Shown piece by piece: positions 3,575 to 17,254 of a DNA stretch of 64,000 nucleotides. The stretch is from Candidatus Pelagibacter communis. Its GTDB lineage: Bacteria > Pseudomonadota > Alphaproteobacteria > Pelagibacterales > Pelagibacteraceae. Numbering within the stretch: position 1 is the stretch's first letter; every line of letters begins with the position of its first letter. The notes under the pieces were generated by a model. The model was not told the origin of the DNA, did no database searches, and saw only the letters and a program-made list of their open reading frames with translations. A program made the translations under genes and the position numbers. The stretch spans positions 1 to 64,000 of the forward strand of contig CVSD01000004.1 of the NCBI GenBank assembly GCA_001179885.1, in the 5' to 3' direction.

Positions 3575-4480
3575 ATGGTTGAGCTTAAAAATGAAAAAAT
3601 AGCAGTTCCTGTTGTTTTGTTTGCTGGTATCCTATGGTCCTTTGGTCCCTTGGTTGTGAGATATATGAGTGATCCTCATATGGTACCTTGGCAATATATA
3701 TTTGGTAGAGGATTAACGATTTTTATAATTTTAAATCTTTATTTGTATTTTGAAGAAGGAATTAATTTTTACAAAAATTATAAAAAAGTCGGAAAATCTG
3801 GACTTGTTGGTGGAATAGGGCTTGGAATAGCAATGATTTCATTCATTTATTCAATAACCAATACTTCAGCAGCAATTACTCTTTTGTGTTTGGCCGCAAT
3901 GCCTTTTTTTACTGCTTTACTAGCTTTTTTATTTTTAAAGGAAAAGATTTCTTTAAATGTTTGGATATCAATTATTATTGCTACCATAGGGATTATTATA
4001 ATGGCTGTAGGAAATACAGAAAAAAACTCTTTGATAGGTTTTGTTTTTGGTATCACATCTTCTATAGGTTTTTCTATATTTTCAGTTACTTTAAGATGGA
4101 GAAAAGAAACTCCTAAATTTACAACTGTTGCTGTTGCTGGTCTATTTTGTTTTGTAATTGCTACTATAATGATTTTGGCTAAAGGTCAGCCATTTTTTGC
4201 AACAAGCTATAACAGCGCGATGTTTTCATTGCATGGTACATTAGTTTGTTTAGGACTTATTTTGTACTCTATAGGATCAAAAGCAATTCCCGCAGCTGAA
4301 TTAACCTTACTATCTTTAACAGAAGTAATAGGTGGAATTTTTTGGGTATGGTTACCATTATTTGGTATTAACGAAGTTCCTTCAACAAACACAATAGTTG
4401 GTGGATTTTTTCTTTTTGTTTCATTAATTTATTATAGTCTTATTATGCGATGGAATAAGAGATATATTGCTCTAAATTAA
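3575..4480 (+). CDS. EamA/DMT-superfamily transporter
   Basis: A 301-residue inner-membrane protein with about ten hydrophobic segments in two EamA repeats, the usual size for the drug/metabolite transporter superfamily. Typical family features are the FAGILWSFGPLVVRY start, the ITLLCLAAMPFFTALLAF helix, and the PAAELTLLSLTEVIGGIFW segment in repeat two. The substrate is not readable. Only 15 bp separate it from the creatinase gene and 1 bp separates that from the amidinotransferase. Co-transcription is likely, so uptake or export of a guanidino compound such as creatine is a reasonable inference, not a demonstration. Confidence 0.88.
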   Translation: MVELKNEKIAVPVVLFAGILWSFGPLVVRYMSDPHMVPWQYIFGRGLTIFIILNLYLYFEEGINFYKNYKKVGKSGLVGGIGLGIAMISFIYSITNTSAAITLLCLAAMPFFTALLAFLFLKEKISLNVWISIIIATIGIIIMAVGNTEKNSLIGFVFGITSSIGFSIFSVTLRWRKETPKFTTVAVAGLFCFVIATIMILAKGQPFFATSYNSAMFSLHGTLVCLGLILYSIGSKAIPAAELTLLSLTEVIGGIFWVWLPLFGINEVPSTNTIVGGFFLFVSLIYYSLIMRWNKRYIALN

Positions 4481-4495
4481 TTTCTAAATTATTTT

Positions 4496-5713
4496 ATGGA
4501 AAGACCTGATTTTTTTACATTAAAGAACGGTGAAAAAGTAAAACTTCCTTTTTCAAATAAAGAATACGATCAAAGGGTAAGTAAATTAAGATCTGTAATG
4601 GATAAAAATAATATTGATATGATTATTTTAACTTCAATGCACAATATTGCTTATTACACAGGTTTTATTTATTGTTCCTTTGGAAGACCTTACGGCTGTG
4701 TTATAACAAATAAGAAAATTTCAACTATCTCAGCTAATATAGACGCAAGTCAGCCTTGGCGAAGATCACACTGCGATAATATTATTTATACTGATTGGAA
4801 AAGAGATAATTTTTTAAAAGCTATAGTTTCAATTATAGGCAGAGATGATCCTCCAAAAAATATTGGAATTGAAAATGACCATGTAACTTTAGAGATGAGT
4901 GAAAAAATTCGCTCGATTTTTTCATTTTCAGTCTTTAGTGATATTTCAAAAGAACTTATGAAACTTAGAATGATAAAATCTGATGAGGAAATTAAAATAA
5001 TTAAAAATGGAGCAAGAATTGCTGATATAGGTGGCGAAGAAATAGTTAAAAATATTAAAGAAGGAGCAACAGAATTAGAAATTGCAATTAGTGGAAGAGA
5101 CAAGATGGAAAGAGAAATTGCAATTACTTATCCTGATGCTGAATATATGGATACTTGGGTATGGTTTCAGTCAGGAATAAATACTGATGGTGCTCACAAC
5201 CCAAAAACTAATCGTAAATTAGTAAATGGTGATATTTTATCTTTAAATACTTTTCCAATGATTTCAGGATATTACACAGCTCTTGAAAGAACTCTTTTTT
5301 TAAATTCTGTTGATAATCAATCTTTAAAAGCTTGGGAAGCAAATGTAAAAGTTCATAAAAGAGGATTAGAATTGATTAAACCAGGTGTTAAGTGTTCAGA
5401 TATTTGTAATGAGTTAAATGAACTGTTTGCTGAACTTGGATATTTACAATATAGAACTTTTGGTTATGGACATTCTTTTGGTGTCCTTTCACATTTTTAT
5501 GGAAGAGAAGCAGGTTTAGAACTTAGAGAGGATATTGATACGGTTTTAGAAGAAAATATGGTTGTCTCCATGGAACCAATGATTTTAATTCCTGAGGGTA
5601 AACCGGGTGCAGGTGGTTATAGGGAACACGATATTTTAGTTATTGGTAAAAATGGATCAGAAAATATTACTAAATTTCCATTTGGACCTGAACATAATAT
5701 AGTTAAGGGGTAA
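4496..5713 (+). CDS. Creatinase (creatine amidinohydrolase), M24 'pita-bread' fold
   Basis: Creatinase hydrolyses creatine to sarcosine and urea. This 405-residue protein resembles the Pseudomonas creatinase I recall along its full length, not just at the fold level. Shared segments include HNIAYYTGFIYCSFGRPY (49-66), SANIDASQPWRR (79-90), MDTWVWFQSGINTDGAHNP (218-236) and the C-terminal GAGGYREHDILV. His234 in DGAHNP corresponds to the catalytic His (232 in Pseudomonas). Related M24 proteins are Xaa-Pro peptidases, but the DTWxWFQSGINTDGAHNP stretch favours creatinase. Its ATG follows the transporter by 15 bp and its TAA precedes the amidinotransferase ATG by 1 bp. The product sarcosine could feed glycine and one-carbon metabolism (inference). 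Confidence 0.85.
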   Translation: MERPDFFTLKNGEKVKLPFSNKEYDQRVSKLRSVMDKNNIDMIILTSMHNIAYYTGFIYCSFGRPYGCVITNKKISTISANIDASQPWRRSHCDNIIYTDWKRDNFLKAIVSIIGRDDPPKNIGIENDHVTLEMSEKIRSIFSFSVFSDISKELMKLRMIKSDEEIKIIKNGARIADIGGEEIVKNIKEGATELEIAISGRDKMEREIAITYPDAEYMDTWVWFQSGINTDGAHNPKTNRKLVNGDILSLNTFPMISGYYTALERTLFLNSVDNQSLKAWEANVKVHKRGLELIKPGVKCSDICNELNELFAELGYLQYRTFGYGHSFGVLSHFYGREAGLELREDIDTVLEENMVVSMEPMILIPEGKPGAGGYREHDILVIGKNGSENITKFPFGPEHNIVKG

Positions 5714-5714
5714 A

Positions 5715-6830
5715 ATGAGTAAAAATAAAGTTATTGTAAATAGCTGGAATGAATGGGATCCACTTAAACATGTAATTGTTGGTAGAGCAGATGGAACTTG
5801 TATTCCTGCACCTGAACCTGCTCTTGACGCAAAAGTTCCAGAAGACTCTGATATGAGAGGAAAATTTGGCCCAAGAACTAAAGACACTGTTGATAAAGCA
5901 AATCAGCTTTTAGATGATTTTTCAAATATGTTAGTAAAAAGAGGCATAAAAGTAGATAGGCCATCACCTATTGATTTTAATCAAAAAACTTCAACACCAG
6001 ATTGGGAGTCAGAGACAATGTTCGGGTGTATGCCACCCAGAGATGTTCTGCTCACTGTTGGAAATGAAATTTTAGAAGCGACAATGAGTTATAGATGTCG
6101 TTGGTTTGAGTACCTATGTTATCGACCACTTTTACAAGATTATTATAATAATGACCCTAATATGAGGCATGAGTCCGCACCTAAACCTAGATTAACAGAT
6201 GCTGATTATCGAAAAGATTATTTATCTGACAAAATAGGGATTCAAAAAAGACTTAAATGGACTGAGGATAAATTTTTTGTAACAACTGAAGAGGAGCCAT
6301 TGTTTGATGCAGCTGATGTACTAAGATTTGGAAAAGATTTGGTGGTTCAACATGGTTTTACCACAAATTTAAAAGGTATAGATTGGTTGAAAAGACATTA
6401 CAAAGATCACAGAGTTCATGCAGTAAATTTTCCTGGCGATCCTTATCCAATTCATATTGATGCAACATTCACACCAATTAAAGAGGGTTTAATCATAAAC
6501 AATCCTCAGAGAAGATTACCACAAGAGCAAAGAAAACTATTTGAAAAAAATGGATGGGAAATAATTGACGCTGCTCAACCTGCTCACAATGAGCCGCCAG
6601 CACTATGTTATTCATCAGTTTGGCTTTCAATGAATGTTTTGGTTTTAGACCCTAAAACAGTCTGTGTAGAAAAAAGTGAAAAATATCAAGCAGAACAATT
6701 AGATAAATTAGGGATGGAGATAATTCCAGTAGATTTGAGAGATGCTTATGCTTTTGGTGGAGGTCTTCATTGTTGTACAGCAGATGTTTATAGAGAAGGG
6801 GAATTAAAAGATTATTTTCCTAAACAATAG
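5715..6830 (+). CDS. Arginine:glycine-type amidinotransferase
   Basis: Amidinotransferases of this family move the amidino group of arginine to an acceptor amine; with glycine this gives guanidinoacetate and ornithine. The 371-residue protein has the family start NSWNEWDPLKHVIVGRA (9-25). It also has the PPRDVLLTVGNEILEA segment (107-122), FDAAD (197-201), PIHIDATF with the catalytic His247, and GGGLHCCTADV with the nucleophile Cys353. The acceptor (glycine, lysine or another amine) cannot be told from sequence. It immediately follows the creatinase gene, so the operon handles guanidino compounds. Whether it builds guanidinoacetate or runs in reverse is open. Confidence 0.88.
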   Translation: MSKNKVIVNSWNEWDPLKHVIVGRADGTCIPAPEPALDAKVPEDSDMRGKFGPRTKDTVDKANQLLDDFSNMLVKRGIKVDRPSPIDFNQKTSTPDWESETMFGCMPPRDVLLTVGNEILEATMSYRCRWFEYLCYRPLLQDYYNNDPNMRHESAPKPRLTDADYRKDYLSDKIGIQKRLKWTEDKFFVTTEEEPLFDAADVLRFGKDLVVQHGFTTNLKGIDWLKRHYKDHRVHAVNFPGDPYPIHIDATFTPIKEGLIINNPQRRLPQEQRKLFEKNGWEIIDAAQPAHNEPPALCYSSVWLSMNVLVLDPKTVCVEKSEKYQAEQLDKLGMEIIPVDLRDAYAFGGGLHCCTADVYREGELKDYFPKQ

Positions 6831-6831
6831 A

Positions 6832-7059
6832 TTAACTTGGGTTTTGTTTTAAAAATTCAATATAACTTAAAACTTCATTAAATTTTTCATCTGGAATATC
6901 TTTATAAGACGAATTGAATTTAGTTTTTACACAAATTGCAACATGGGCATACGGATTTCTTCCTTTAGGATGATTTGGGTGATCTGGTAGTTGTCCTTCC
7001 AAATAATCGCCAGCTTCCTGAATAATTTTCCAGAGTTTACTTGCGTTTTCTTTGTTCAC
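6832..7059 (-). CDS. Small unknown protein at the left edge of an islet
   Basis: A 75-residue ORF read from a GTG at 7057-7059. It is soluble and slightly charged, with a conserved-looking core GRNPYAHVAICVKTKF followed by SSYKDIP and FNEVLSYIEFL. That last part reminds me of the C-terminal ORF6C-type module of phage antirepressors, but the resemblance is weak and unverified. A 60-bp copy of its 5' end lies at 9357-9416 in the same orientation, where the start codon is ATG. The ancestral gene therefore probably began with that ATG and was displaced by the intervening insertion. It converges on the amidinotransferase gene, 1 bp from its stop. Confidence 0.6.
   Translation of the reverse strand: MNKENASKLWKIIQEAGDYLEGQLPDHPNHPKGRNPYAHVAICVKTKFNSSYKDIPDEKFNEVLSYIEFLKQNPS
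6999..7058. repeat. Left copy of 60-bp direct repeat flanking the islet
   Basis: These 60 bases match 9357-9416 in the same orientation with a single difference (G at 7054, A at 9412). The repeat covers the first 20 codons of the small minus-strand ORF apart from the outermost base of its start codon. Flanking direct repeats with different DNA between them are typical of integration or of duplication by recombination. Confidence 0.9.
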
Positions 7060-7084
7060 ACACTCACTTTTCTTGTTTTATCTC

Positions 7085-7130
7085 TTTTGTATCTAGTTTG
7101 TATCTAGTTATCCTATAAAATCCTATAAAT
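7085..7130. repeat. Short tandem repeats at the left inner end of the islet
   Basis: Two perfect 11-bp units TTTGTATCTAG lie head to tail at 7086-7096 and 7097-7107. They are followed by two 10-bp units TCCTATAAA(A/T) at 7111-7120 and 7121-7130. The 18-mer TTTTGTATCTAGTTTGTA at 7085-7102 recurs exactly at 9216-9233, just beyond the membrane-protein operon. Such iterons near an element's ends could be recombinase binding sites, but no recombinase gene is present. Confidence 0.7.
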
Positions 7131-7159
7131 TATAACCAGTATCAATAGAGATTTTTTAA

Positions 7160-7723
7160 TTATTTAAATGTAGTCATCTTCAAATATTCTTCTAAGTTAT
7201 TCTTAATCCATTTGAGACGTTTATCTTTATTTGCCTGCAAATCCGAACGTCTCAATATTCCAACTAATCCATGAACAGATGCCCAAATATTGACTGCTTT
7301 TATCATAACATCTTTATCAGATGCATTGGGCATAAAATTTTTAACTCCTTGAATTACTCCATCAAAAGCTTCATCAAATAGAGCTTCTATATCGGGATAA
7401 AGAGATATATCTAAATCCGTATTCCCAAACATTAAATCGTAAATATATGGATACTTTAATCCAAATCTTATGTAATGAGCTCCGTAACCAGAAAAATTAT
7501 TGGTTAAATTTTTCTTGCCCTTATTTATTATTTCAAAACCTCTTCGAACCAACTCTGCTTTAAGATCATTTTTGTTTTTTAAATGTCTATAAAAAGCAGT
7601 ATTTGAAACTCTAGCTTTCTTAGCAACTTCTCGCATATTAACTTTTTCCCAAGACTCAGCGACACAAATATTCCATGCAACCTCAACGAGTTTTTCTTTT
7701 AGATTTTTTTTGTGATAGCTCAT
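7160..7723 (-). CDS. TetR/AcrR-family transcriptional regulator
   Basis: A 187-residue DNA-binding regulator. The N-terminal helix-turn-helix covers about residues 8-55, with NMREVAKKARVSNTAFYRHL as its core. The remainder is a helical ligand-binding domain ending in a WxSVHGLVGILRRSDLQ segment, as in TetR proteins with a WHG-type C-terminal domain. It is divergent from the ABA4-like gene. The spacer holds two palindromes of the same design (7732-7752 and 7767-7785), so it very likely controls both itself and the two membrane-protein genes. Its base composition is closer to the host's than that of the operon it faces. The ligand is unknown. Confidence 0.92.
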   Translation of the reverse strand: MSYHKKNLKEKLVEVAWNICVAESWEKVNMREVAKKARVSNTAFYRHLKNKNDLKAELVRRGFEIINKGKKNLTNNFSGYGAHYIRFGLKYPYIYDLMFGNTDLDISLYPDIEALFDEAFDGVIQGVKNFMPNASDKDVMIKAVNIWASVHGLVGILRRSDLQANKDKRLKWIKNNLEEYLKMTTFK

Positions 7724-7731
7724 ATCAAATT

Positions 7732-7752
7732 AATGTTTACAAAGTAAACATT
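7732..7752. promoter_or_regulatory. Primary operator-like palindrome for the TetR regulator
   Basis: A perfect inverted repeat: 9-bp arms AATGTTTAC and GTAAACATT around a 3-bp AAA centre. It starts 9 bp upstream of the tetR start codon. Size and symmetry fit a TetR dimer site; binding is inferred. Confidence 0.75.
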
Positions 7753-7766
7753 TTCCTATAGTAATC

Positions 7767-7785
7767 ATGTTATCTTAGTAAACAT
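7767..7785. promoter_or_regulatory. Second, imperfect operator-like palindrome
   Basis: ATGTTATC-TTA-GTAAACAT repeats the arm sequence and the 3-bp spacing of the site at 7732-7752, with two arm mismatches. Centre-to-centre distance is 34 bp, about three helical turns, so two dimers would sit on the same face of the DNA. It lies 39 bp upstream of the preferred start of the ABA4-like gene. Confidence 0.6.
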
Positions 7786-7824
7786 AATAACAGGATTTTA
7801 AATATAATGAAAGAAGGTTGGATC

Positions 7825-8373
7825 ATGAAGAAAAATTTGTATCTTAGCGCCGTTTGGTTGATCATAACACTTTTGGCAACTGGCTTAGTCCTGTATTTCT
7901 TGCGAAATTTCCTACCCAATGATCTTGAATCTTGGTTCTCCTATAGTGGACTTATTGCGATGATTGGCTGGGTGATCTTGATTTTTGGGCCACGACGTTG
8001 GCCGTTATTATCGATCTTGCCGGCGTATGTTTTCCCAGCAGTTCTATCGTTGGGTTACGTGATTTTGATACTGCGCCACTTCGGTCCCGCTGAAGGTGGT
8101 TACAATACACTAGCGGATGTAGCGAAATTATTATCCAACGATCATATTTTGCTAGCAGGTTGGGTGCACTATTTGGCGTTCGACCTTTTCATTGGTGCAT
8201 GGATTTCACGGCAATCAGATGATGCTGGTATTTCACGAGTAGTTCAGGCTCCGATCCTAGCCTCAACTTTCATGTTTGGCCCACTTGGGTTGCTCCTGTT
8301 CCTGATGTTATGGAAGGCCCGTAAACTGATACTAGATATCCCTCAATCGATAACAAAAGGAGCTGGACAATGA
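7825..8373 (+). CDS. ABA4-like (DUF4281-type) membrane protein
   Basis: A 182-residue membrane protein with about five hydrophobic segments. The stretch LLSNDHILLAGWVHYLAFDL and the following FIGAWISRQ match the ABA4-like family, whose plant member is needed for neoxanthin formation; bacterial functions are unknown. I prefer the ATG at 7825, which has AGAAGG about 9 bases upstream, over an in-frame ATG at 7807. Codons are much richer in G+C than in neighbouring genes, indicating transfer. It overlaps the next gene by 4 nt (ATGA) and faces tetR across two palindromes. A lipid- or carotenoid-related role is only a guess from the plant protein. Confidence 0.75.
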   Translation: MKKNLYLSAVWLIITLLATGLVLYFLRNFLPNDLESWFSYSGLIAMIGWVILIFGPRRWPLLSILPAYVFPAVLSLGYVILILRHFGPAEGGYNTLADVAKLLSNDHILLAGWVHYLAFDLFIGAWISRQSDDAGISRVVQAPILASTFMFGPLGLLLFLMLWKARKLILDIPQSITKGAGQ

Positions 8374-9176
8374 CGATACTGACACTATCACCAAAGGTTT
8401 CTGTGACTTCCCGTGTGGAGGATTTGCTCTGGCAGGGTGGTTTAATTATCATCGCGTTCTTGCCAGTCACGTTCCTGGTTTCACTTTATGATCCACGTCA
8501 GCTGAACGAAATAAATATTTGGTCGAAACCAATGAAGTTCTATGCGTCGGTTGGACTGCACATGATAACCATCGCCTTCATTGCACGTTTTATTGATTAC
8601 GATGTTCGGAGAAAATTTTCGGTTTATGTCCTGGGCTGGGTCCTGACATTCACTGCGATTTTTGAGTTGGCCTACCTTACTATGCAGGCTGCACGCGGAC
8701 GTCACTCGCACTGGAACTTCGAGACCACGTTCGAATCCTTGATGTACGCTGCAATGGGCATTGGAGCTGTCATATTGATTCTGATTCCTGTAGTAATCGG
8801 TCTGCTGGTTTACCGCTACCCTGTTCGTGAGATGCGTCAGGGTCTACGACTTGGTATTTTGTTAGGCATGATCCTCGGATTTTTCACAACTTTAATTGTC
8901 GCCGGTTATATGTCGCAAACATACGGCCACTGGGTCGGTGGAGTCAAAAGTGATGCCGATGGCTTGCCAATCGTCGGTTGGGTGCGTAGTGGTGGTGACC
9001 TACGTGTGCCTCACTTCTTCGCGACGCACTTGATGCAGATCATCCCTGTGATTGGATTTATCGCTGATCGTTTCTTCCAAAGACCAAGACTTATTGTTGT
9101 CATCGCATCTACTATAGGTGTAGGTATGGTCGCTTTCACATTCTTGCAGGCTTTAAGAGGTCAACCATTCATCTGA
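8370..9176 (+). CDS. Unknown polytopic membrane protein with conserved-looking His motifs
   Basis: A 268-residue protein with about seven hydrophobic segments. I do not recognise a named family. Distinct features are the WSKPMKFYASVGLHM segment (about 51-65), GRHSHWNFETTFES (about 110-123) between two helices, and GGDLRVPHFFATHLMQ (about 208-223). The His/Trp/Arg-rich patches at membrane borders could bind a metal, haem or an anionic substrate (inference). Its start overlaps the ABA4-like gene by 4 nt, so the two are co-translated. Base composition is well above that of the host genes (28 G/C in the 60 bases 8881-8940). Confidence 0.75.
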   Translation: MTILTLSPKVSVTSRVEDLLWQGGLIIIAFLPVTFLVSLYDPRQLNEINIWSKPMKFYASVGLHMITIAFIARFIDYDVRRKFSVYVLGWVLTFTAIFELAYLTMQAARGRHSHWNFETTFESLMYAAMGIGAVILILIPVVIGLLVYRYPVREMRQGLRLGILLGMILGFFTTLIVAGYMSQTYGHWVGGVKSDADGLPIVGWVRSGGDLRVPHFFATHLMQIIPVIGFIADRFFQRPRLIVVIASTIGVGMVAFTFLQALRGQPFI

Positions 9177-9356
9177 TCAGCAATTTGCTTTAAAAATAGT
9201 TATTTGATTTATCTTTTTTGTATCTAGTTTGTAATGTAGTTTTTTTATTAAATAGATGAGTCTTTAAGCGATTTACTTAATGTAAATTTTTGATTATCCG
9301 CATAAGTACTGTAGTTTGATGTAGCTTAATGTGGAATAATGTGTCCCTCTATTCCC
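9177..9356. other. Right-end spacer of the islet, no gene seen
   Basis: Noncoding as far as I can see. It contains the exact 18-bp repeat of 7085-7102 (at 9216-9233) and a small inverted repeat ATTTAC-TTAAT-GTAAAT at 9272-9288. G+C drops back to the host level right after the operon's stop codon. No tRNA T-loop or other RNA gene is evident. Confidence 0.6.
9216..9233. repeat. Right copy of 18-bp direct repeat
   Basis: TTTTGTATCTAGTTTGTA is identical to 7085-7102, in the same orientation. It sits 39 bp downstream of the stop codon of the second membrane gene. Confidence 0.8.
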
Positions 9357-9417
9357 CCAAATAATCGCCAGCTTCCTGAATAATTTTCCAGAGTTTACTT
9401 GCGTTTTCTTTATTCAT
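9349..9417 (-). pseudogene. Truncated copy of the small ORF at 6832-7059
   Basis: Read from an ATG (9415-9417), the repeat encodes 22 residues. The first 20 equal the N-terminus of the 75-residue protein; the frame then leaves the repeat and stops. It is best explained as the 5' stump of the ancestral gene, separated from its body by the islet. Confidence 0.7.
9357..9416. repeat. Right copy of 60-bp direct repeat flanking the islet
   Basis: This is 59/60 identical to 6999-7058 at a constant offset of 2358 bp. Outside the repeat the two copies diverge at once. Confidence 0.9.
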
Positions 9418-9458
9418 TTACTTTGAAATATTATATTGTTAACCTTAAATAGTAAATT

Positions 9459-9905
9459 ATGTCTAAAGTTTTTAAGTTAGGTATTACCGATAAAAATAAT
9501 AGTGAAATTAAGGAGGTAGCATCTATAGAAGTTTTAGCCAATAAAGGTGTAGTAGGAGATAGACACTTTGATGATTTTAATGATCCTTATTGCCAATTAT
9601 CTTTAATAGAATCAGAAAATATTGATTATTATAATTTTAAATATGGTTTAAATATTCCTTACATAAATTTTAGGAGAAATATAGTTACTAAAGGTATTAA
9701 GTTAAACGAATTAGTTGGAAAAAAAATTAAAGTTGGAGACGTTAGCATAGAAGGAATAGATTTATGCAGACCTTGTAGACATTTGACAGAAATGCTAGAT
9801 CAAGAAAATATTTTAAAAGAATTTTTAAGAAGGGGTGGTCTCAGATGTCAGATTTTATCTTCAGCAAAAATAAAAATTGGAGATCAAATTAAAATTATAG
9901 ATTGA
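9459..9905 (+). CDS. Stand-alone MOSC-domain protein
   Basis: A 148-residue protein made only of a MOSC (molybdenum cofactor sulfurase C-terminal) domain. Visible family features are GVVGDRHFDD (about 31-40), INFRRNIVTKGI (about 67-78), LVGKKIKVGDVSIEG, and the DLCRPCRHL cysteine segment around residue 105. The Cys in that segment is the usual sulfur or molybdenum-cofactor contact. MOSC proteins act in sulfur transfer or bind molybdenum cofactor; the partner is unknown. It lies about 5.9 kb from moeA and might belong to the same cofactor economy (inference). A start ATG at 9459 fits the domain start. Confidence 0.85.
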   Translation: MSKVFKLGITDKNNSEIKEVASIEVLANKGVVGDRHFDDFNDPYCQLSLIESENIDYYNFKYGLNIPYINFRRNIVTKGIKLNELVGKKIKVGDVSIEGIDLCRPCRHLTEMLDQENILKEFLRRGGLRCQILSSAKIKIGDQIKIID

Positions 9906-9910
9906 CTTCT

Positions 9911-10648
9911 TTAATTTTCTTTAGTTTTACTAACTTCAAATTTTTCTAAACCAGTAGAAATATTGTTTTCTATAGAATTTTCTTTTTCCTCAAATGATTT
10001 CAATCTTTCCAGTTCCTTTTGTCTTAGTCTTTGTTCTCTTAAATTTTCTCGATGTTCTTTTGCTTTTTGTTCCCTATCAAATTTTTCTTCCCATTCTTTT
10101 ATTTTTAAATATTCTAATTCTTTTTGTCTTTCTTCCTCTTCCTTAATTACTTTTAAGGCTCTCTCTCTTCGTCTCTTATCTTTTAATTCTAGATTTTTTT
10201 GCTCTTCTTCTCTAACTTTTAAATCAATATCTTTTCTATTTTGAGCCTCCTCTTTTAATTTAAGCTCTTTTTCTTTATTTCTTAATTCTTTTGCTATTTG
10301 GATAAGATCTTCATCCTTTTTAATTAAACGATCTGACTCTATTTTTTGGGTATTTTCTTTTAAATCAAGATCTTTTTCTTTCGTCCTTAACTCTTCTTCT
10401 TTTATTTTAATTTTATTACTTTCTTTTGAAAGTCTCTCTTCCCAAAATTTTAGATCTTTTCTTTCATTAGAAATTCTATTTTTTTCCTCTAATTTTTGTA
10501 ATTTAATTGATTTAATTTTTTCAAGTTCTTTATTTTTTTTATAATTATTGAATGCACTGCTAAGTGATTTAGTTGTAAACGTTGCAAATTTAGCTAAACC
10601 AACCTTTTTTTTTAAATTTTTTTTTTTAATTTTTTTTTTTTGCGGCAT
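9911..10648 (-). CDS. Highly charged coiled-coil protein, unknown function
   Basis: A 245-residue protein made almost wholly of K, E, R, L, D and N. After a very basic start (residues 2-15) and a short uncharged patch (LAKFATFTTKSLSSAF, about 18-33), one long predicted coiled coil runs to about residue 220. It contains repeating units such as KEKDLDLKEN, KEKELKLKEE and REEEQKNLELK, spaced about 11-14 residues apart. There is no signal peptide or membrane span. I do not recognise a family. Neighbours (MOSC protein convergent, MFS upstream) give no functional clue. Low complexity means similarity searches will be misleading. Confidence 0.65.
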   Translation of the reverse strand: MPQKKKIKKKNLKKKVGLAKFATFTTKSLSSAFNNYKKNKELEKIKSIKLQKLEEKNRISNERKDLKFWEERLSKESNKIKIKEEELRTKEKDLDLKENTQKIESDRLIKKDEDLIQIAKELRNKEKELKLKEEAQNRKDIDLKVREEEQKNLELKDKRRRERALKVIKEEEERQKELEYLKIKEWEEKFDREQKAKEHRENLREQRLRQKELERLKSFEEKENSIENNISTGLEKFEVSKTKEN

Positions 10649-10762
10649 TTTATTATTTTTTTATTTCACTAAAGAAAAAACTTTTTTTCAACAAAATTTT
10701 ATAAATAAATTTTTTAATCTGACTAAATTGGGTACAACCTGAAAGTGATTTTTTAAATAAGA

Positions 10763-12058
10763 TTATTGATTTGTTGTCTGTTCAGATATTTTTTCTGGCT
10801 CATCTATTGGCTCAGTGGTTGGATTTAATTCAATACCAGCAGGTGTAATAGTTTGTGGCATAGCAATAAACTGCGAGTCAGGATTATCCACTGTTTGCCT
10901 GACTTTCATTCTATAAATTCCAAAAATTCCTATTACAGAATGGAAAAAAAATAAAAATATAAAAAATCCATTAGGACCAACCAAGTCCATGAATATTGAA
11001 CATAAAAAAGGACCACTCATCGCACCCAATCCAAAAGCAAATTGAAGTCCTGCACCTGCGGCTACAAATTTATCTTTTGATATATAATCATTAGTGTGTG
11101 CTAAGATTAAAGAAAACATTGGCAAACTACAAAAAGAAAAAAGAATAAAAAATATATAAAACCATGTTTTACTTGTTGCAAGGCCTTCTGGTAAATACAT
11201 TTGTCTAGAAACAATTATTGCCACAATAGCAAATATTGCTGCACCAAATGTAGAATAAACAATAACTTTTCTTCTATCATAGATATCTGATAATTTTCCA
11301 ATAGGAAATTGTGCTACTGAACCTGAAGTGGCCAACAGAAAGGTCACAATTGAAATTTCTAATATTGAAAAGTTCATCGAAGTTGCATAAACAGCTAATA
11401 GTGTAAATAATGCTGATTGAATAGTTCCATAAAATAACGAGCTAACCATTCCAAATGGGGAAGCTTGATACAAATCTATTAAATTCATTGCTTGAATTCT
11501 TTTAAATGTCGGTGCTTTCTTTTTAGTTAACAATATTGGTATTAATGCTGCTGAGGTAATAACTGAAACTAAAATAAAAGGTTGAAAATTTTGTGGACTA
11601 CTAAAGTTAAGCAAAAACATACCTACACCCATAGATCCATACAGCACCACCATATAAATTGATAAAACACTTCCTCTATTTTTATTACTTGACCGGTCGT
11701 TTAACCAACTCTCTGCAACTGTATAAATACACACCATGCTTATTCCAGTTAAAACTCTCAATAAAAACCAAATAAATGGATGTATCAAAATAGAATGGAC
11801 TAAAATTACTAATGATGCCAATGAGGCAAAAGCAGCAAAAACTCTAATATGACCAACTCTTGAAATTATATTTGGAATTGTAGCTGCACCAATAAAATAT
11901 CCAACAAAATAACCAGACATCATAAAACCAGTTGCAGTCAAACTAAACTCCTCTTTAACAGCTCTTACACCTAGAAGAGATCCTTGAAAACCATAGGCCA
12001 TCATAATAAAACCCATACCCAAAAATAGTGCCCAAGAATTTTTTAAAACTTTATTCAT
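10763..12058 (-). CDS. MFS transporter
   Basis: A 431-residue inner-membrane protein with about twelve hydrophobic segments and a hydrophilic C-terminal tail of about 40 residues. Major facilitator features include AESWLNDRSSNKNRGSVLS (about 116-134, near the loop after helix 4) and the IGKLSDIYDRRKVIVYST loop after about helix 8. The pattern resembles YcaD-like members, but substrate and direction are unknown. It is transcribed alone, 58 bp downstream of the DMT gene on the same strand. Confidence 0.9.
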   Translation of the reverse strand: MNKVLKNSWALFLGMGFIMMAYGFQGSLLGVRAVKEEFSLTATGFMMSGYFVGYFIGAATIPNIISRVGHIRVFAAFASLASLVILVHSILIHPFIWFLLRVLTGISMVCIYTVAESWLNDRSSNKNRGSVLSIYMVVLYGSMGVGMFLLNFSSPQNFQPFILVSVITSAALIPILLTKKKAPTFKRIQAMNLIDLYQASPFGMVSSLFYGTIQSALFTLLAVYATSMNFSILEISIVTFLLATSGSVAQFPIGKLSDIYDRRKVIVYSTFGAAIFAIVAIIVSRQMYLPEGLATSKTWFYIFFILFSFCSLPMFSLILAHTNDYISKDKFVAAGAGLQFAFGLGAMSGPFLCSIFMDLVGPNGFFIFLFFFHSVIGIFGIYRMKVRQTVDNPDSQFIAMPQTITPAGIELNPTTEPIDEPEKISEQTTNQ

Positions 12059-12116
12059 AAAAATTGACGTAAGTATTCGCGATGTATTAATAAATCAAGA
12101 CTTAATTGTGACAAGC

Positions 12117-12977
12117 TTAAGAATTTTTAAGCTTCATAAATGAGTGGATTGCAATCGTAGCTATAATAATTGCTCCACCTTGTAGGGTTTCTATGCTTGG
12201 TTGTTCCTTAATTATCAACCAAACCCAGATTGGACCAATAATAGTTTCTAACAAGAAAAATAGGTTTACTTCAGCTGCTGGAATAAACCTTGGAGCTATA
12301 GTTACTAATACAAATGGTATTGCAACACACAGAATACACATCAAAGGTATTATTATTAAATCTTTGTCAATAAGCAAAAAACTTTCAATAAAAAATAAAG
12401 CAAAAGTAGCTACAAATAATTTACCAACAACAGCAGCAGGAACTAAATTTTTTGATTTAGCCGATCTTACAGTAATAGCGCCTACAGCCAAACCAAGTGC
12501 AGTGATGAACCCTAAAATATCCCCATAAAAATTACCTAATTTTAATGAATCAAAGAAAATATAAATTATAGCTAAAAAAGTAACTATTATTGAAATCCAT
12601 GTTTTTTTATCTGGGGGTTCTTTTAAAAATATTGCTCCAAGTATTGCTGATATCATTGGGGCAGTGGCAATCATAACAAGCGTATTAGCAACATTTGTAT
12701 TTTGAATTGAAAGTACAAAAGTAATATTTGTTAAACTAAATGTTCCAACATAAATAATCCCATGATAACCACTACTAAAAAGAATTCTAAAAAAATTTAA
12801 CTGATATATTACAAGCATTCCTAAGAAAACTGTGAAAAAAGGAATTATCCCTCTGTAAAAAACTAATCCCCATGTATCAACATTTGAAAGTCTTATAAAT
12901 AAAGAATCAGGTGTAATAAACATAACTGCTACAAAAGCCATTAAGGAACCTTTTTGTTGATCGGTCAGATTTTTCAT
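12117..12977 (-). CDS. EamA/DMT-superfamily transporter
   Basis: A 286-residue, ten-helix DMT transporter with two EamA repeats (repeat two includes FIPAAEVNLFFLLETIIGPIWVW). I start it at the ATG at 12975-12977, which overlaps the gshB stop as ATGA. A longer reading from a TTG at 12995 adds six residues that intrude into gshB. It ends the long minus-strand run from rpsF. Being coupled to gshB, it might move glutathione or a precursor, but no sequence feature demonstrates that. Confidence 0.87.
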   Translation of the reverse strand: MKNLTDQQKGSLMAFVAVMFITPDSLFIRLSNVDTWGLVFYRGIIPFFTVFLGMLVIYQLNFFRILFSSGYHGIIYVGTFSLTNITFVLSIQNTNVANTLVMIATAPMISAILGAIFLKEPPDKKTWISIIVTFLAIIYIFFDSLKLGNFYGDILGFITALGLAVGAITVRSAKSKNLVPAAVVGKLFVATFALFFIESFLLIDKDLIIIPLMCILCVAIPFVLVTIAPRFIPAAEVNLFFLLETIIGPIWVWLIIKEQPSIETLQGGAIIIATIAIHSFMKLKNS

Positions 12978-13900
12978 GCTTTTAATTCTTTCCAAAAAGT
13001 TTTCGCAAGATTAATTTTTGATAAATCATATAAAGTTTTTAATCCTGTTGGGGAAGTAACATTGATATCACCGTTAAGTTTTTGATCTATAAAATCTATT
13101 CCTGCAAAAAAAATATTTTCTTTTCTTAAGTCACTTGCTATTTTTTTTGATATTTTTTTTTCAGATATTGTAAGATTTGTAGTTATTGCTTTACCACCTT
13201 TGCTCATATTACTTAAATATGAGCCTTTTTTAGGAATCCTTGATATAGCGCCAGCAATTTTTCCATTGATTATGAACACTCTTTTGTCTCCATTACTTAT
13301 TTTAGGTAAAAATTTCTGACACATCATGAAGCCATACTTTTTAAGAAGTTTTTGGACTAATTTAAAATTAAATTTAGAGAATAAATGAATATCATTACCA
13401 CCAAAACTATGCACAGGTTTAAGAATTACTTTTTTGTTAGCTTTAAAAAAATTTTTGATTTCATTTAAATTTTGAGAAAAAATAGTATTAGGCATAAATT
13501 TTTGATATTTTGCTGAATAAAATTTTTCAGAAATATTTCTTATTGATGTTGGATTGTTTATAATTTTAACCTTATCCTTTATAGTATCCAATATGTAAGT
13601 TGTTGAAATATATTCAAGATTAAAAGGAGGGTCTTGTCTTATTAAAATAAATTTACATTTTAACAAATCTAATTTTTGTTTTCTTAATATTTTATAAATT
13701 TTTCTTTTATTATAATTAAATTTTATAAAAAATCCTTTAGCAATAACTTTTGAATTAATGATAGATATATCTTTAGGTTCATAATAGAATATTTTATAAT
13801 TTTTTTTTTGAATTTCATTTGCTAAAAAAATACTTGTGTCTGTTAAAGGATTAAGTTTTGATGGATTATTTCCTTGAATAGCAACAATTTTATTTATCAT
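12974..13900 (-). CDS. gshB: Glutathione synthetase, ATP-grasp
   Basis: It joins gamma-glutamylcysteine and glycine using ATP. The protein is about 308 residues from the ATG at 13898-13900; a GTG at 13909 is an alternative. It shows the GshB architecture: an N-terminal domain, an RQDPPFN segment, an ATP-grasp lysine region VILKPVHSFGGNDIHLF, and a late FFAGIDFI / INVTSPTG segment that normally closes the metal- and glycine-binding site. It overlaps the end of gshA by 11 nt. The loops are lysine-rich and somewhat diverged, but partner context makes the call firm. Confidence 0.9.
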   Translation of the reverse strand: MINKIVAIQGNNPSKLNPLTDTSIFLANEIQKKNYKIFYYEPKDISIINSKVIAKGFFIKFNYNKRKIYKILRKQKLDLLKCKFILIRQDPPFNLEYISTTYILDTIKDKVKIINNPTSIRNISEKFYSAKYQKFMPNTIFSQNLNEIKNFFKANKKVILKPVHSFGGNDIHLFSKFNFKLVQKLLKKYGFMMCQKFLPKISNGDKRVFIINGKIAGAISRIPKKGSYLSNMSKGGKAITTNLTISEKKISKKIASDLRKENIFFAGIDFIDQKLNGDINVTSPTGLKTLYDLSKINLAKTFWKELKA

Positions 13901-15185
13901 ATAGTTCACTTAAATTTTCATTTTTTGAAAATTTATTAATCATATGATCTGCGTTTGTCGTTTTATTATCAATTACTTTTTGCAAATGTCTTAAAAATAA
14001 AGTTTCATTTTTGTTACTTTTGTTAAGAACATCTCTATTTTCTAATCCTTTCTTAGATAAATCCAATAAAGTTGAAGCCCAATAAAGAAGATTTTTACCC
14101 ATCAATTCTGTATTAAACCCTTTTTTTGGAGCCTCAAGGTAAGCGTTAATAATTTTATCTTTATCCCATCTTGAAATTAAATCATAAACTTCATCTAAGT
14201 TTCCATATAACAAACCAATATTAAAAGCTGGACCAGCGCACAAACAATCCCAACCACATGTGTCCATAGATCTAAGTTCAATATATTTTTTTAATCTGTT
14301 TTCAGTAAATATTGTACTTAGATGGGTTGATAAGTCATTTTCATTGGGTAAACGATTATTAATTTCATCAACACTACCATTCATAAAATCTTTAAATCTA
14401 TATCTTTGTCCTGAAATATATCTCTCTTTTTCTTGAATAAACAAAATCTGAAAATTCATTACAAAATCTGCGTATTTTTCAAAATTTAAATCTTCTAAGA
14501 ATAATTTTGGCAAGCCACCTCGAGAAGTATTCTGCCATACTTTAGATCGATAAGATGAATAATTACTTTTTTTCTTTTCAACAATTGAAGAATTAGCAAA
14601 CAAAGCAATTGAAATAGGAACAATAGAATTTACAATTTTGAATTTTTTAACAAAGTCTTCTTCTGAACTGTAATCAATATTTAATTGAGTTCCACAAGTT
14701 CGATACATCATATCAAGACTCAATTCTCCTCCTAAAGGCATATCTTTTGTCATTAGTTTATATCTTTGCTTTGGATTATTTGGAATTTCATTAAGTTTTG
14801 ATATTGGATCAAAGCCTGAACTGACAATGCTTATATTAATTTTTTTTGTTACTTGTTTAAGTTCAAACAAATAATCTTGAGACTCAGCACAAGCTTCATG
14901 GATATTGTTTAACTTTTCTCCAGATAATTCAATTTGATTTCCAGGCTCAAGGGTAATATTTTTTTCACCTTTATTTAAACCAATTATATTATCTTTTTCT
15001 AAAATTGGATTCCAACCAAATTCTAACAAGGCTGAAAACATTTCTTTTACTTTTGTATAGTTTATTCGCTTATTATTTTTGTTATCAAATAAAAATTTTT
15101 CATGTTCAATTCCAATTTTAAAATCTTTTTGATTTTTAATTCCAGATTGAAAATATTTAATAATTTGTTCTTTGGTATTAATCAT
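13890..15185 (-). CDS. gshA: Glutamate-cysteine ligase (plant/alphaproteobacterial GCS2 type)
   Basis: It catalyses the first step of glutathione synthesis. The 431-residue protein fits the plant-like class: GIEHEKFLF near residue 24, LEPGNQIELSG near 77-87, DMMYRTCGTQLNIDYSS near 155-171, and RYRFKDFMNG near 261. It is translationally coupled to gshB downstream. About 29 bp separate it from the upstream HD-domain gene, so it is probably part of the same transcript as purF. Confidence 0.92.
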   Translation of the reverse strand: MINTKEQIIKYFQSGIKNQKDFKIGIEHEKFLFDNKNNKRINYTKVKEMFSALLEFGWNPILEKDNIIGLNKGEKNITLEPGNQIELSGEKLNNIHEACAESQDYLFELKQVTKKINISIVSSGFDPISKLNEIPNNPKQRYKLMTKDMPLGGELSLDMMYRTCGTQLNIDYSSEEDFVKKFKIVNSIVPISIALFANSSIVEKKKSNYSSYRSKVWQNTSRGGLPKLFLEDLNFEKYADFVMNFQILFIQEKERYISGQRYRFKDFMNGSVDEINNRLPNENDLSTHLSTIFTENRLKKYIELRSMDTCGWDCLCAGPAFNIGLLYGNLDEVYDLISRWDKDKIINAYLEAPKKGFNTELMGKNLLYWASTLLDLSKKGLENRDVLNKSNKNETLFLRHLQKVIDNKTTNADHMINKFSKNENLSELYDK

Positions 15186-15214
15186 AAGATCTAAATAATA
15201 CTTTTTTTTGTTAT

Positions 15215-15772
15215 TTAAAGTAAAGAGTAAGGTTTTCTTGAGAAAATTCTCTTTACCATCGGAGAAAAGTCTTCAAGTGTCATACTTTTATAATTTGGAT
15301 CAAATGATGCTTGATCCCATTTTTCACAAAAGTTAACAGCATCATTGTAGTATTCATGATCTTTATATTTATCTCTTTGATTTTTATTTTTACCTAAATG
15401 ATGAGCATAATAGTACATTTGAAATTCTCCATGTTTCTCTATTATCCAGTGGGTTTTTTTACTCACGTAGGGTTTCAAGACAGCTGCCGCATATTCTGAG
15501 TGATTTAAAGGAGCCAACTCATCACCTATATCATGTAATAAAGCTGCAACAACCATCTCCTCATCTGCTTTATCTTTATAAGCTCTTGTTGCTGTTTGAA
15601 GAGAATGCTCAAGTCTTGATACTTTATATCCTTCCAAGGTTGCCGTAAGACCTTTTATAAAATTCAAAATTCTATCAGCTGTTCCATTAATGTATTCTTG
15701 TTCATATTTATCTAGCAATAGATATTCATCTTTTGTGCCTGATTTCATTTCAGTAAAATTAACTGTTTTCAT
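15215..15772 (-). CDS. HD-domain protein, PhnZ/MIOX-like
   Basis: A 185-residue soluble protein with an HD-superfamily ligand set: His56 (EHSLQTATRA), His80-Asp81 (ALLHDIGDEL), a later His (108 or 114), His124/125 (YYAHHLG), and Asp153 in EKWDQASFD. The LLHDIGDEL and (K/R)WDxA motifs are those of PhnZ-type mixed-valent diiron oxygenases and related HD proteins often found near phosphonate or polyol catabolism. Ordinary phosphohydrolase activity is the alternative. Here it sits directly between purF (adjacent) and gshA, with no phosphonate genes in view. The substrate is unknown. Confidence 0.75.
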   Translation of the reverse strand: MKTVNFTEMKSGTKDEYLLLDKYEQEYINGTADRILNFIKGLTATLEGYKVSRLEHSLQTATRAYKDKADEEMVVAALLHDIGDELAPLNHSEYAAAVLKPYVSKKTHWIIEKHGEFQMYYYAHHLGKNKNQRDKYKDHEYYNDAVNFCEKWDQASFDPNYKSMTLEDFSPMVKRIFSRKPYSLL

Positions 15773-17254
15773 TTAATTATTTGAAGCAGTACTTAATAAA
15801 GATAGTTGAGTAATTTTATTATCACCAAGTTCATCAATTGGTTTTACTGGATAATCTCCCGTAAAATAATGATCAGTTAATTGAGGATAACTCTCGTTTC
15901 TTTTCTCAAACCCGATGGCTCTATACATTCCGTTTATTGATAAAAACTTTAAAGATTTTGCCCCTATATATTCACATATCTCATCATTGGTTTTATTTGC
16001 AGCTAACAATTCTTTTTTAGTCGGAGTATCCACTCCATAGAAATCAGGATATTTAATCTCTGGGCAGGCAATTTTTACATGAACTTCTTTTGCTCCAGCA
16101 TCATAAAGCATTTTTACAATTTTATAAGATGTAGTTCCTCTAACTAAAGAGTCGTCAATAAGAATTATCTTTTTATTTTTAATAGCTGATTGATTGGCAT
16201 TTAATTTTAATTTCACTCCTAAACTTCTGATTTTTTGACTAGGTTCAATAAAAGTTCTACCTACATAATGATTACGCACTAATCCAAGCTCAAAATTCAT
16301 GCCTAAATGTTGAGCAAAACCTAAGGCTGCTGCATTACCTGAGTCTGGAACTGGAACAATAATATCTGCATCGACATCATTTTCTTTAGCAAGCTCAGCT
16401 CCAAGACTTTTACGATGTTCATAGGCTGTTTTACCATCAAGAATACTGTCTGGTCTTGCAAAATATATATATTCAAAAACACAAGGTCTAACTTTTTTTT
16501 TTGGAAAAGGTTTAATACTTTCTAATTTATCATTTTCAATAAGCACAATCTCTCCATTCTCAACTTCTCTAATAAATTTTGCTCCAATTATATCTAAAGC
16601 ACATGTTTCTGATGCTAAAACATAACTATTTTTTAATTTTCCAATTACTAACGGTCTGATACCAAATGGATCTCTAACTCCAATTAATGATCTTTGAGTT
16701 AACATTACCAAAGCATAGCCACCTTGTATTTGAAATATAGCATCAACAATTTTGTCTATTGTTTTTATTCTTTTTGATTTTGCAATTAATTGGACAATTG
16801 TTTCAGTATCAGATGTTGTGTAGAAAATTGCACCATCTTCAACTAATTTTTTCCTTAAAGAAATTGAGTTAGTTAAATTTCCGTTATGAGCAACTCCGAT
16901 GCCACCAGCGTTTGTATCAGCAAAAAAAGGCTGAATGTTTCTCAAAGTATTTTCTCCTGTTGTACTATATCGATTATGTCCTATAGCATAGTCACCTTGA
17001 AGTTTTTTTAAAACTTTTTCTTTATTGAAATTGTCCCCAACAAGTCCAAATCTTTTTTCAGAAAAATATTGTTTTCCATCAAAAGTGACAATTCCACAAC
17101 CTTCTTGTCCTCGATGTTGAAGAGCATGAAGACCTAGCGCTGCTAGTGCTGAGGCATCTTTAGCATTACTAATACCAAATATGCCACATTCTTCTTTAAA
17201 TTTAGGATTAAAGGTCTTCAATTTTTTCTTTTGAATCTTGATATGTTTTTTCAT
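15773..17254 (-). CDS. purF: Amidophosphoribosyltransferase
   Basis: First committed enzyme of purine synthesis: PRPP plus glutamine gives phosphoribosylamine. The 493-residue protein has a 22-residue leader before Cys23 (ECGIFGIS), the N-terminal nucleophile expected after propeptide removal. It then has the Ntn glutaminase domain (ALQHRGQEGCGI) and a phosphoribosyltransferase domain with IILIDDSLVRGTT (about 363-375). It overlaps the upstream cvpA by 47 nt, a long overlap that places the leader inside cvpA's end. It directly abuts the HD-domain gene. purM-purN lie elsewhere in the window (34667-36258). Confidence 0.95.
   Translation of the reverse strand: MKKHIKIQKKKLKTFNPKFKEECGIFGISNAKDASALAALGLHALQHRGQEGCGIVTFDGKQYFSEKRFGLVGDNFNKEKVLKKLQGDYAIGHNRYSTTGENTLRNIQPFFADTNAGGIGVAHNGNLTNSISLRKKLVEDGAIFYTTSDTETIVQLIAKSKRIKTIDKIVDAIFQIQGGYALVMLTQRSLIGVRDPFGIRPLVIGKLKNSYVLASETCALDIIGAKFIREVENGEIVLIENDKLESIKPFPKKKVRPCVFEYIYFARPDSILDGKTAYEHRKSLGAELAKENDVDADIIVPVPDSGNAAALGFAQHLGMNFELGLVRNHYVGRTFIEPSQKIRSLGVKLKLNANQSAIKNKKIILIDDSLVRGTTSYKIVKMLYDAGAKEVHVKIACPEIKYPDFYGVDTPTKKELLAANKTNDEICEYIGAKSLKFLSINGMYRAIGFEKRNESYPQLTDHYFTGDYPVKPIDELGDNKITQLSLLSTASNN

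Follow-up and report, generated by a model that had tools for sequence, protein, structure and literature searches.

Near the start of the window analysed here, a stretch of 64,000 nucleotides (27% GC) from Candidatus Pelagibacter communis (contig CVSD01000004.1 of assembly GCA_001179885.1, positions 1 to 64,000), lies a cassette of three genes on the forward strand. They encode a DMT/EamA-family transporter (3575..4480, 301 aa), a creatinase of the creatine amidinohydrolase family (4496..5713, 405 aa) and AGAT1, a protein of the arginine:glycine amidinotransferase (AGAT) family (5715..6830, 371 aa). The list of open reading frames (ORFs) places the first two genes 15 bp apart and the last two 1 bp apart, a spacing that suggests co-transcription of all three. 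The gene names and spacing proposed in a preceding sequence-only reading of this DNA were borne out by the ORFs, Pfam and phmmer, and the three-gene cassette is confirmed at these coordinates. We consider it somewhat probable that marine SAR11 bacteria use this cassette catabolically, for the scavenging of guanidino acids; the substrates and the direction of the amidinotransferase are deduced from sequence comparison and gene context.

The three proteins of the cassette

The second gene encodes a full-length member of the creatinase family, for which activity on creatine would be expected. Pfam finds Creatinase_N and Peptidase_M24 in the protein, and its best phmmer matches in PDB are all solved creatinases (1chm, 8e-159; 7yto, 2e-155; 1kp0, 2e-148), the next being a prolidase at 2e-29. 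A generic M24 peptidase was rejected on this gap in E-value to the best non-creatinase. Seven motifs span the active-site positions of creatinase, which we take to be Phe62, Arg64, His232, Glu262, His324, Arg335, Glu358 and His376, and all seven are present in the window protein. Across 105 homologue rows (104 distinct) they were matched as written in 105, 105, 104, 105, 93, 104 and 105 rows, respectively, and the misses retain the key residue (YGRESG, YYIALERT, SIEPM and similar). The earlier concern that the protein might be a peptidase is thus answered, by sequence, by the E-values and the motifs. Enzyme family, full-length match and active-site motifs are shared with creatine catabolism of the Pseudomonas type (EC 3.5.3.3). 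The SAR11 system differs from it in being coupled with an amidinotransferase and a DMT transporter, and in that no urease was found in three single-contig genomes possessing the cassette.

For the amidinotransferase, the sole Pfam match is ADI, barely above the cut-off, whereas phmmer against PDB ranks human AGAT (1jdx, 8e-87) above SxtG (1e-64) and HsvA (8e-59). The catalytic residues, numbered Asp254, His303 and Cys407 in the human enzyme, lie in the motifs FDAAD, HIDATF and GGGLHC of the protein. Among 123 homologue rows (108 distinct), the Asp motif is found in 122, the His motif in 123 and a relaxed Cys motif in 120. These catalytic motifs argue for membership of the AGAT family, with glycine and guanidinoacetate as the predicted substrates. 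The 300-flap reads DPYPI, with Tyr and Ile in place of Asn300 and Met302 of human AGAT, and the string DPYPIHIDATF occurs in 121 of the 127 loci scanned. The flaps given in PMC4887976 are DPNPM for human AGAT, DIFPS for CyrA and DMHPM for AmtA. CyrA, a true Arg:Gly enzyme, likewise lacks Asn300 and Met302, so these residues are not required for AGAT family membership. CyrA also shares with the window enzyme an aromatic residue at flap position 300, and AmtA, a relative, is described in PMC4887976 as reversible. Overall match and catalytic motifs are thus common to the SAR11 protein, human GATM and cyanobacterial CyrA and AoaA; the differences are the DPYPI flap and a gene setting that looks catabolic rather than dedicated to creatine or toxin synthesis.

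The EamA domain of the DMT protein scores 69 bits (6e-19) against a Pfam cut-off of 28.2. We propose that this transporter carries a guanidino compound, most plausibly inwards. Its relationship with creatinase was explored in trees of the DMT protein and AGAT. Removal of 10 loci that duplicated, or were shorter than, others from the same genome left 101, and 60 of these were used: all 15 creatinase-negative loci and 45 of the 86 positive ones (35 of these 45 randomly drawn). Two DMT clades track the presence of creatinase, with 56 of 60 rows concordant (Fisher p 4e-9). On the amidinotransferase tree, supported branches provide just 2 independent pairs for this concordance, and the idea that transporter type follows creatinase is only suggestive.

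Conservation and distribution of the cassette

All of the best 80 of 411 creatinase relatives (genome contigs) are titled Pelagibacteraceae, Pelagibacterales or Candidatus Pelagibacter, and are therefore all SAR11. Our conservation counts refer to these 80 loci, which are 87-96% identical to the window and hence not independent. Creatinase is immediately preceded by the DMT gene in all 80 and immediately followed by the amidinotransferase in 78, the remaining two having one unlabelled ORF in between. Such an order is not chance. A threonine-aldolase-like gene comes next after the amidinotransferase in 31 of the 80 loci, and in five the ORF list stops at that point. The one copy scanned matches Pfam Beta_elim_lyase, and its nearest NCBIfam model is the GntG-family PLP aldolase, well under the model cut-off.

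Presence and absence of the genes were followed in 61 genomes, namely the host's own and those of 60 relatives; the host assembly is 55% complete, and absences there carry little weight. The amidinotransferase is present in 50 of the 61 genomes and creatinase in 13. All 13 creatinase genomes also hold the amidinotransferase, and the two genes adjoin in 12 of them, lying on separate contigs in the thirteenth (G039). Within the genus, 17 of the sampled genomes have the amidinotransferase without creatinase, and in 15 of these the DMT gene adjoins it. The two exceptions are G004, which has only a 75% identical paralogue with no adjoining DMT gene, and G011, where a contig end cuts the locus. Creatinase is an optional member inside a DMT-amidinotransferase pair that also exists alone. 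The combination of genes described by the sequence-only reading as metabolically odd is thus real, but its oddness is softened.

Across 386 genomes of the class, at the cut-offs used, the amidinotransferase was found in 10, creatinase in 45 and both in 8. Five genomes outside SAR11 hold both genes, as divergent neighbours in G421 and on separate contigs in G121, G332, G347 and G407. Photobacterium and Streptomyces plasmid records contain amidinotransferases 55-56% identical to that of the window; these records are unannotated and so provide gene order and flap readings only. Two other settings of the gene were also seen. In G212 (L104 8283-15839), a 61% identical amidinotransferase heads a run of genes resembling those for ectoine use, with EutA- and EutB-like proteins (under cut-off), an M24 hydrolase and a cyclodeaminase of the EutC-like kind that passes a cut-off. 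In G332 (L102 2780-6645), two serine/glycine synthesis genes come after the amidinotransferase: serC, which passes its NCBIfam cut-off, and serA, which passes that for PGDH.

On its 3' side, the cassette of the window is bounded by a TetR-family gene on the reverse strand (7160..7723; Pfam TetR_N 8e-07), which converges on it. This gene grouped with no gene of the other loci compared, its kind is the second gene downstream in none of the 80 creatinase loci, and we see no evidence of a regulatory role. A promoter and terminator scan of the window was at background (21 promoters found, 19.9 expected). Next to the TetR gene, at 7807-9176, lie genes for an ABA4-like membrane protein and a 268-aa protein, likewise ungrouped with genes of other loci.

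Interchange of a hydrolase and an amidinotransferase in a second operon

The best clue to the direction of the amidinotransferase is provided by a second SAR11 operon. It encodes one or more DMT transporters, a 2OG-Fe(II) oxygenase, a luciferase-like monooxygenase, a thiamine pyrophosphate enzyme nearest to sulfoacetaldehyde acetyltransferase/acetolactate synthase, an AA_synth protein, a hydrolase and an aldehyde dehydrogenase. Copies lie at 6422-16163 of locus L271, 3168-13821 of L272 and 1-8879 of L054, and the oxygenase of this operon is found in 141 of 399 genus genomes. We compared 63 copies, that is, these three and 60 others hand-picked across the identity range. Fifteen of them have a ureohydrolase and nine have, at the same place at the operon front, a paralogue of the amidinotransferase; 39 have neither (two of these, L312 and L358, are cut by the contig start) and none has both. 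The 15 ureohydrolases share 92-100% identity with the L271 enzyme, which in PDB matches 3-guanidinopropionase best (2e-44), ahead of agmatinase (2e-32). A ureohydrolase works in the breakdown direction.

Whichever of the two enzymes is present, it adjoins a DMT gene in all 24 copies. One transporter type, DMTo, occurs in 20 of these 24 copies versus 3 of the 39 with neither enzyme (one of the three being the truncated L312), an association with a Fisher p of 1e-9 that ignores relatedness. Moreover, the DMTo tree interleaves the enzymes: L271 and L304, with the hydrolase, are grouped with L305 and L311, with the amidinotransferase. A second transporter clade is equally mixed (L363 against L343, L350 and L351). 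If a transporter of one kind has beside it either an amidinotransferase or a hydrolase that acts on guanidino acids in one direction only, the simplest reading would be that both enzymes take the amidino group off one imported compound. This reading may be extended from the paralogue to the window enzyme because the two are 74-76% identical and the flap of the window enzyme is present in all nine paralogues. At the window, the partner hydrolase would be creatinase, with both enzymes retained. The job proposed for the amidinotransferase, removal of the amidino group from a guanidino acid, is that of 3-guanidinopropionase and guanidinobutyrase ureohydrolases; the difference is that these hydrolyse their substrate to urea, whereas the amidinotransferase would transfer the group to ornithine.

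The main amidinotransferase was also found in seven of the nine genomes carrying the paralogue, and not in G591 and G685. In G004 (L050 8304-12471), an amidinotransferase paralogue lies between genes for an 801-aa DAO/GCV_T protein and a 209-aa S-adenosylmethionine (SAM) methyltransferase, and a homologue of this methyltransferase is found in the L272 operon.

Proposed route, alternatives and biological meaning

In the route that we favour, the DMT protein would import creatine or a similar guanidino acid, for instance guanidinoacetate, and creatinase, on the strength of its family and active site, would convert creatine into sarcosine and urea. Sarcosine might then be oxidized to glycine by enzymes encoded elsewhere in the genome, for which GCV_T-bearing proteins are candidates. 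The amidinotransferase would take the guanidino acid that creatinase leaves, most likely guanidinoacetate, and run toward arginine (guanidinoacetate + ornithine -> glycine + arginine). Amidino nitrogen that would otherwise leave urease-less cells as urea could in this way be saved as arginine, and both branches would yield glycine, which cultured subclade I SAR11 require from outside. The threonine-aldolase-like gene, often the next one, could supply glycine as well. Catabolism with the amidinotransferase in reverse had been one of the explanations offered by the sequence-only reading; it fits the evidence and is favoured rather than proved, the direction being our inference.

The metabolic setting agrees with this route in several respects. 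Urease, one of the activities that the sequence-only reading had pointed to, was not found in G012, G341 and G255, the single-contig genus genomes with the cassette, so urea from creatine is probably lost in urease-less cells of this kind. Of 16 genomes screened for urease alpha, G022 (of the genus), G421 and G347 have it in a 570-aa ORF; in three f2 genomes the only matches are short ones that exceed the family cut-off but lie in ORFs of 440 aa. The neighbours of the G022 gene (L273 8382-13218) resemble, by eye, a full urease cluster, in one of the nine genus genomes tested. Argininosuccinate synthase (argG) is over its cut-off in 15 of the 16 genomes, and the amidinotransferase is therefore not needed as the sole source of arginine; the exception, G022 (90% complete), has only a weak match of a kind seen elsewhere alongside the real one. 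Sarcosine oxidase, the other activity pointed to, has plentiful candidates: eight genus members have 7-12 GCV_T matches per genome, the host's partial assembly 4 and f2 genomes 7 or 8, and many of these proteins lie in 780-1015-aa ORFs, as long as dimethylglycine/sarcosine dehydrogenases or the alpha subunit of sarcosine oxidase (one of them, in L050, was scanned against the family libraries). Two g5 genomes, both without the amidinotransferase, have 2 GCV_T matches each. PGDH (SerA) is over its curated cut-off in none of 39 genus genomes, many of them incomplete, and within the order only in G039 and in G152 and G415, both g5. The g5 pair fits the glycine idea. Subclade I isolates are reported in PMC10030771 to be without complete serABC and to depend on outside glycine/serine.

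A second ureohydrolase at first seemed correlated with creatinase, and a creatine-related arginase in creatinase-positive genomes was considered. This candidate was dropped for the polyamine setting of the gene in G012, where it passes the NCBIfam cut-off as an agmatinase. There (L270 6524-9643), agmatinase, 1,9-bis(guanidino)-5-aza-nonane synthase and a decarboxylase stand in a row, representing a guanidino-polyamine pathway in SAR11.

A number of observations weigh against a catabolic route yielding glycine. Proteins of the DMT family are often exporters. Neither the window nor any of 8 related loci has an Rfam riboswitch match that reaches the gathering score, and riboswitch control of the cassette was rejected on that account. 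The flap differs from that of human AGAT at two substrate-affecting positions, and an acceptor other than glycine is therefore possible. The evidence of interchange comes from the paralogue, not from the window's own gene, and becomes weaker once relatedness is considered: of five independent pairs on supported branches, a mean of 3.5 go in the expected way and 0.0 in the opposite one (sign test, median p 0.125). Mutual exclusion of ureohydrolase and paralogue alone gives p = 0.10. All 15 ureohydrolase genes point away from the operon, whereas all 9 paralogue genes run along it, and the nearest NCBIfam model to the L271 ureohydrolase is agmatinase, under the cut-off. Nor is the glycine link strict. 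Short PGDH-like proteins under the cut-off occur in 21 of 24 f2 genomes and in G020 and G023 of the genus, and some I/II genomes do hold serABC (PMC10030771). SerA over the cut-off is combined with both amidinotransferase and creatinase in G039 within the order and in G421, G347, G332 and G407 outside it, and auxotrophy is therefore not required. As a single driver, glycine auxotrophy is only partly consistent with the data, given these counterexamples.

Among the alternatives, the one that survives best keeps the logic of the cassette but assigns other substrates (guanidinopropionate, taurocyamine or another marine phosphagen) to the amidinotransferase and perhaps to the transporter. The DPYPI flap, unlike both the human DPNPM and the CyrA DIFPS, would agree with it, as would the proximity of the interchanged ureohydrolase to 3-guanidinopropionase in PDB and the two DMT clades that go with creatinase presence. 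However, both the catalytic residues and the closest relative of solved structure match the glycine enzyme, and the transporter concordance comes from few independent changes; we regard this alternative as rather unlikely. Still less probable is a glycine-shuttled breakdown of arginine, in which arginine and glycine would give guanidinoacetate and ornithine and the creatinase-family enzyme would then release glycine and urea, the whole replacing arginase. It would account for two genes lying only 1 bp apart, and the forward reaction is the one reported as assayed for AoaA. Yet most relatives, having the amidinotransferase but no creatinase, could not close such a shunt, the creatinase motifs match creatine enzymes, urease was not found in the three single-contig genomes, and in the second operon the paralogue replaces a guanidino-acid hydrolase. 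Mere linkage, with a DMT gene and creatinase for creatine catabolism inserted beside an unrelated biosynthetic amidinotransferase, is the least credible possibility despite the amidinotransferase being the commoner gene, the separate contigs in G039 and adjoining genes in only 1 of 5 genomes holding both outside SAR11, because the same gene order recurs in all 80 nearest SAR11 loci and the two genes again adjoin, divergently, in G421, a member of another family.

Creatine use by SAR11 has already been predicted in print, and the role of the amidinotransferase is the novel part of the catabolic reading. Thompson et al. list a SAR11 creatinase cluster and propose conversion of creatine to glycine (PMC3686209), and creatine use is predicted for an AEGEAN169 clade (PMC11366302). 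These accounts of creatine and glycine betaine use share with ours a creatinase feeding sarcosine/glycine in ocean bacteria. They differ in that the amidinotransferase is absent from both main texts ('amidino' has no occurrence in the former and 'amidinotransferase' none in the latter), and their creatinase cluster may or may not be the gene of the window. We found no description of a SAR11 amidinotransferase in the open-access literature searched, wider searches having been seen through top-ranked titles and abstracts only.

More generally, it is conceivable, although we advance this only tentatively, that SAR11 amidinotransferases are breakdown enzymes that strip scavenged guanidino acids, animal phosphagens included, and bank the amidino group as arginine rather than let it go as urea. 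They would then be part of a mix-and-match module combining a transporter with a creatinase, a ureohydrolase or an amidinotransferase. Few heterotrophic groups of the ocean are as abundant as SAR11. If the proposed route is true, creatine and guanidinoacetate shed by animals and plankton would provide these bacteria with the glycine and arginine that they need, and an enzyme familiar from biosynthesis would act in breakdown. The route also makes it testable why urease-less cells retain a creatinase that produces urea.

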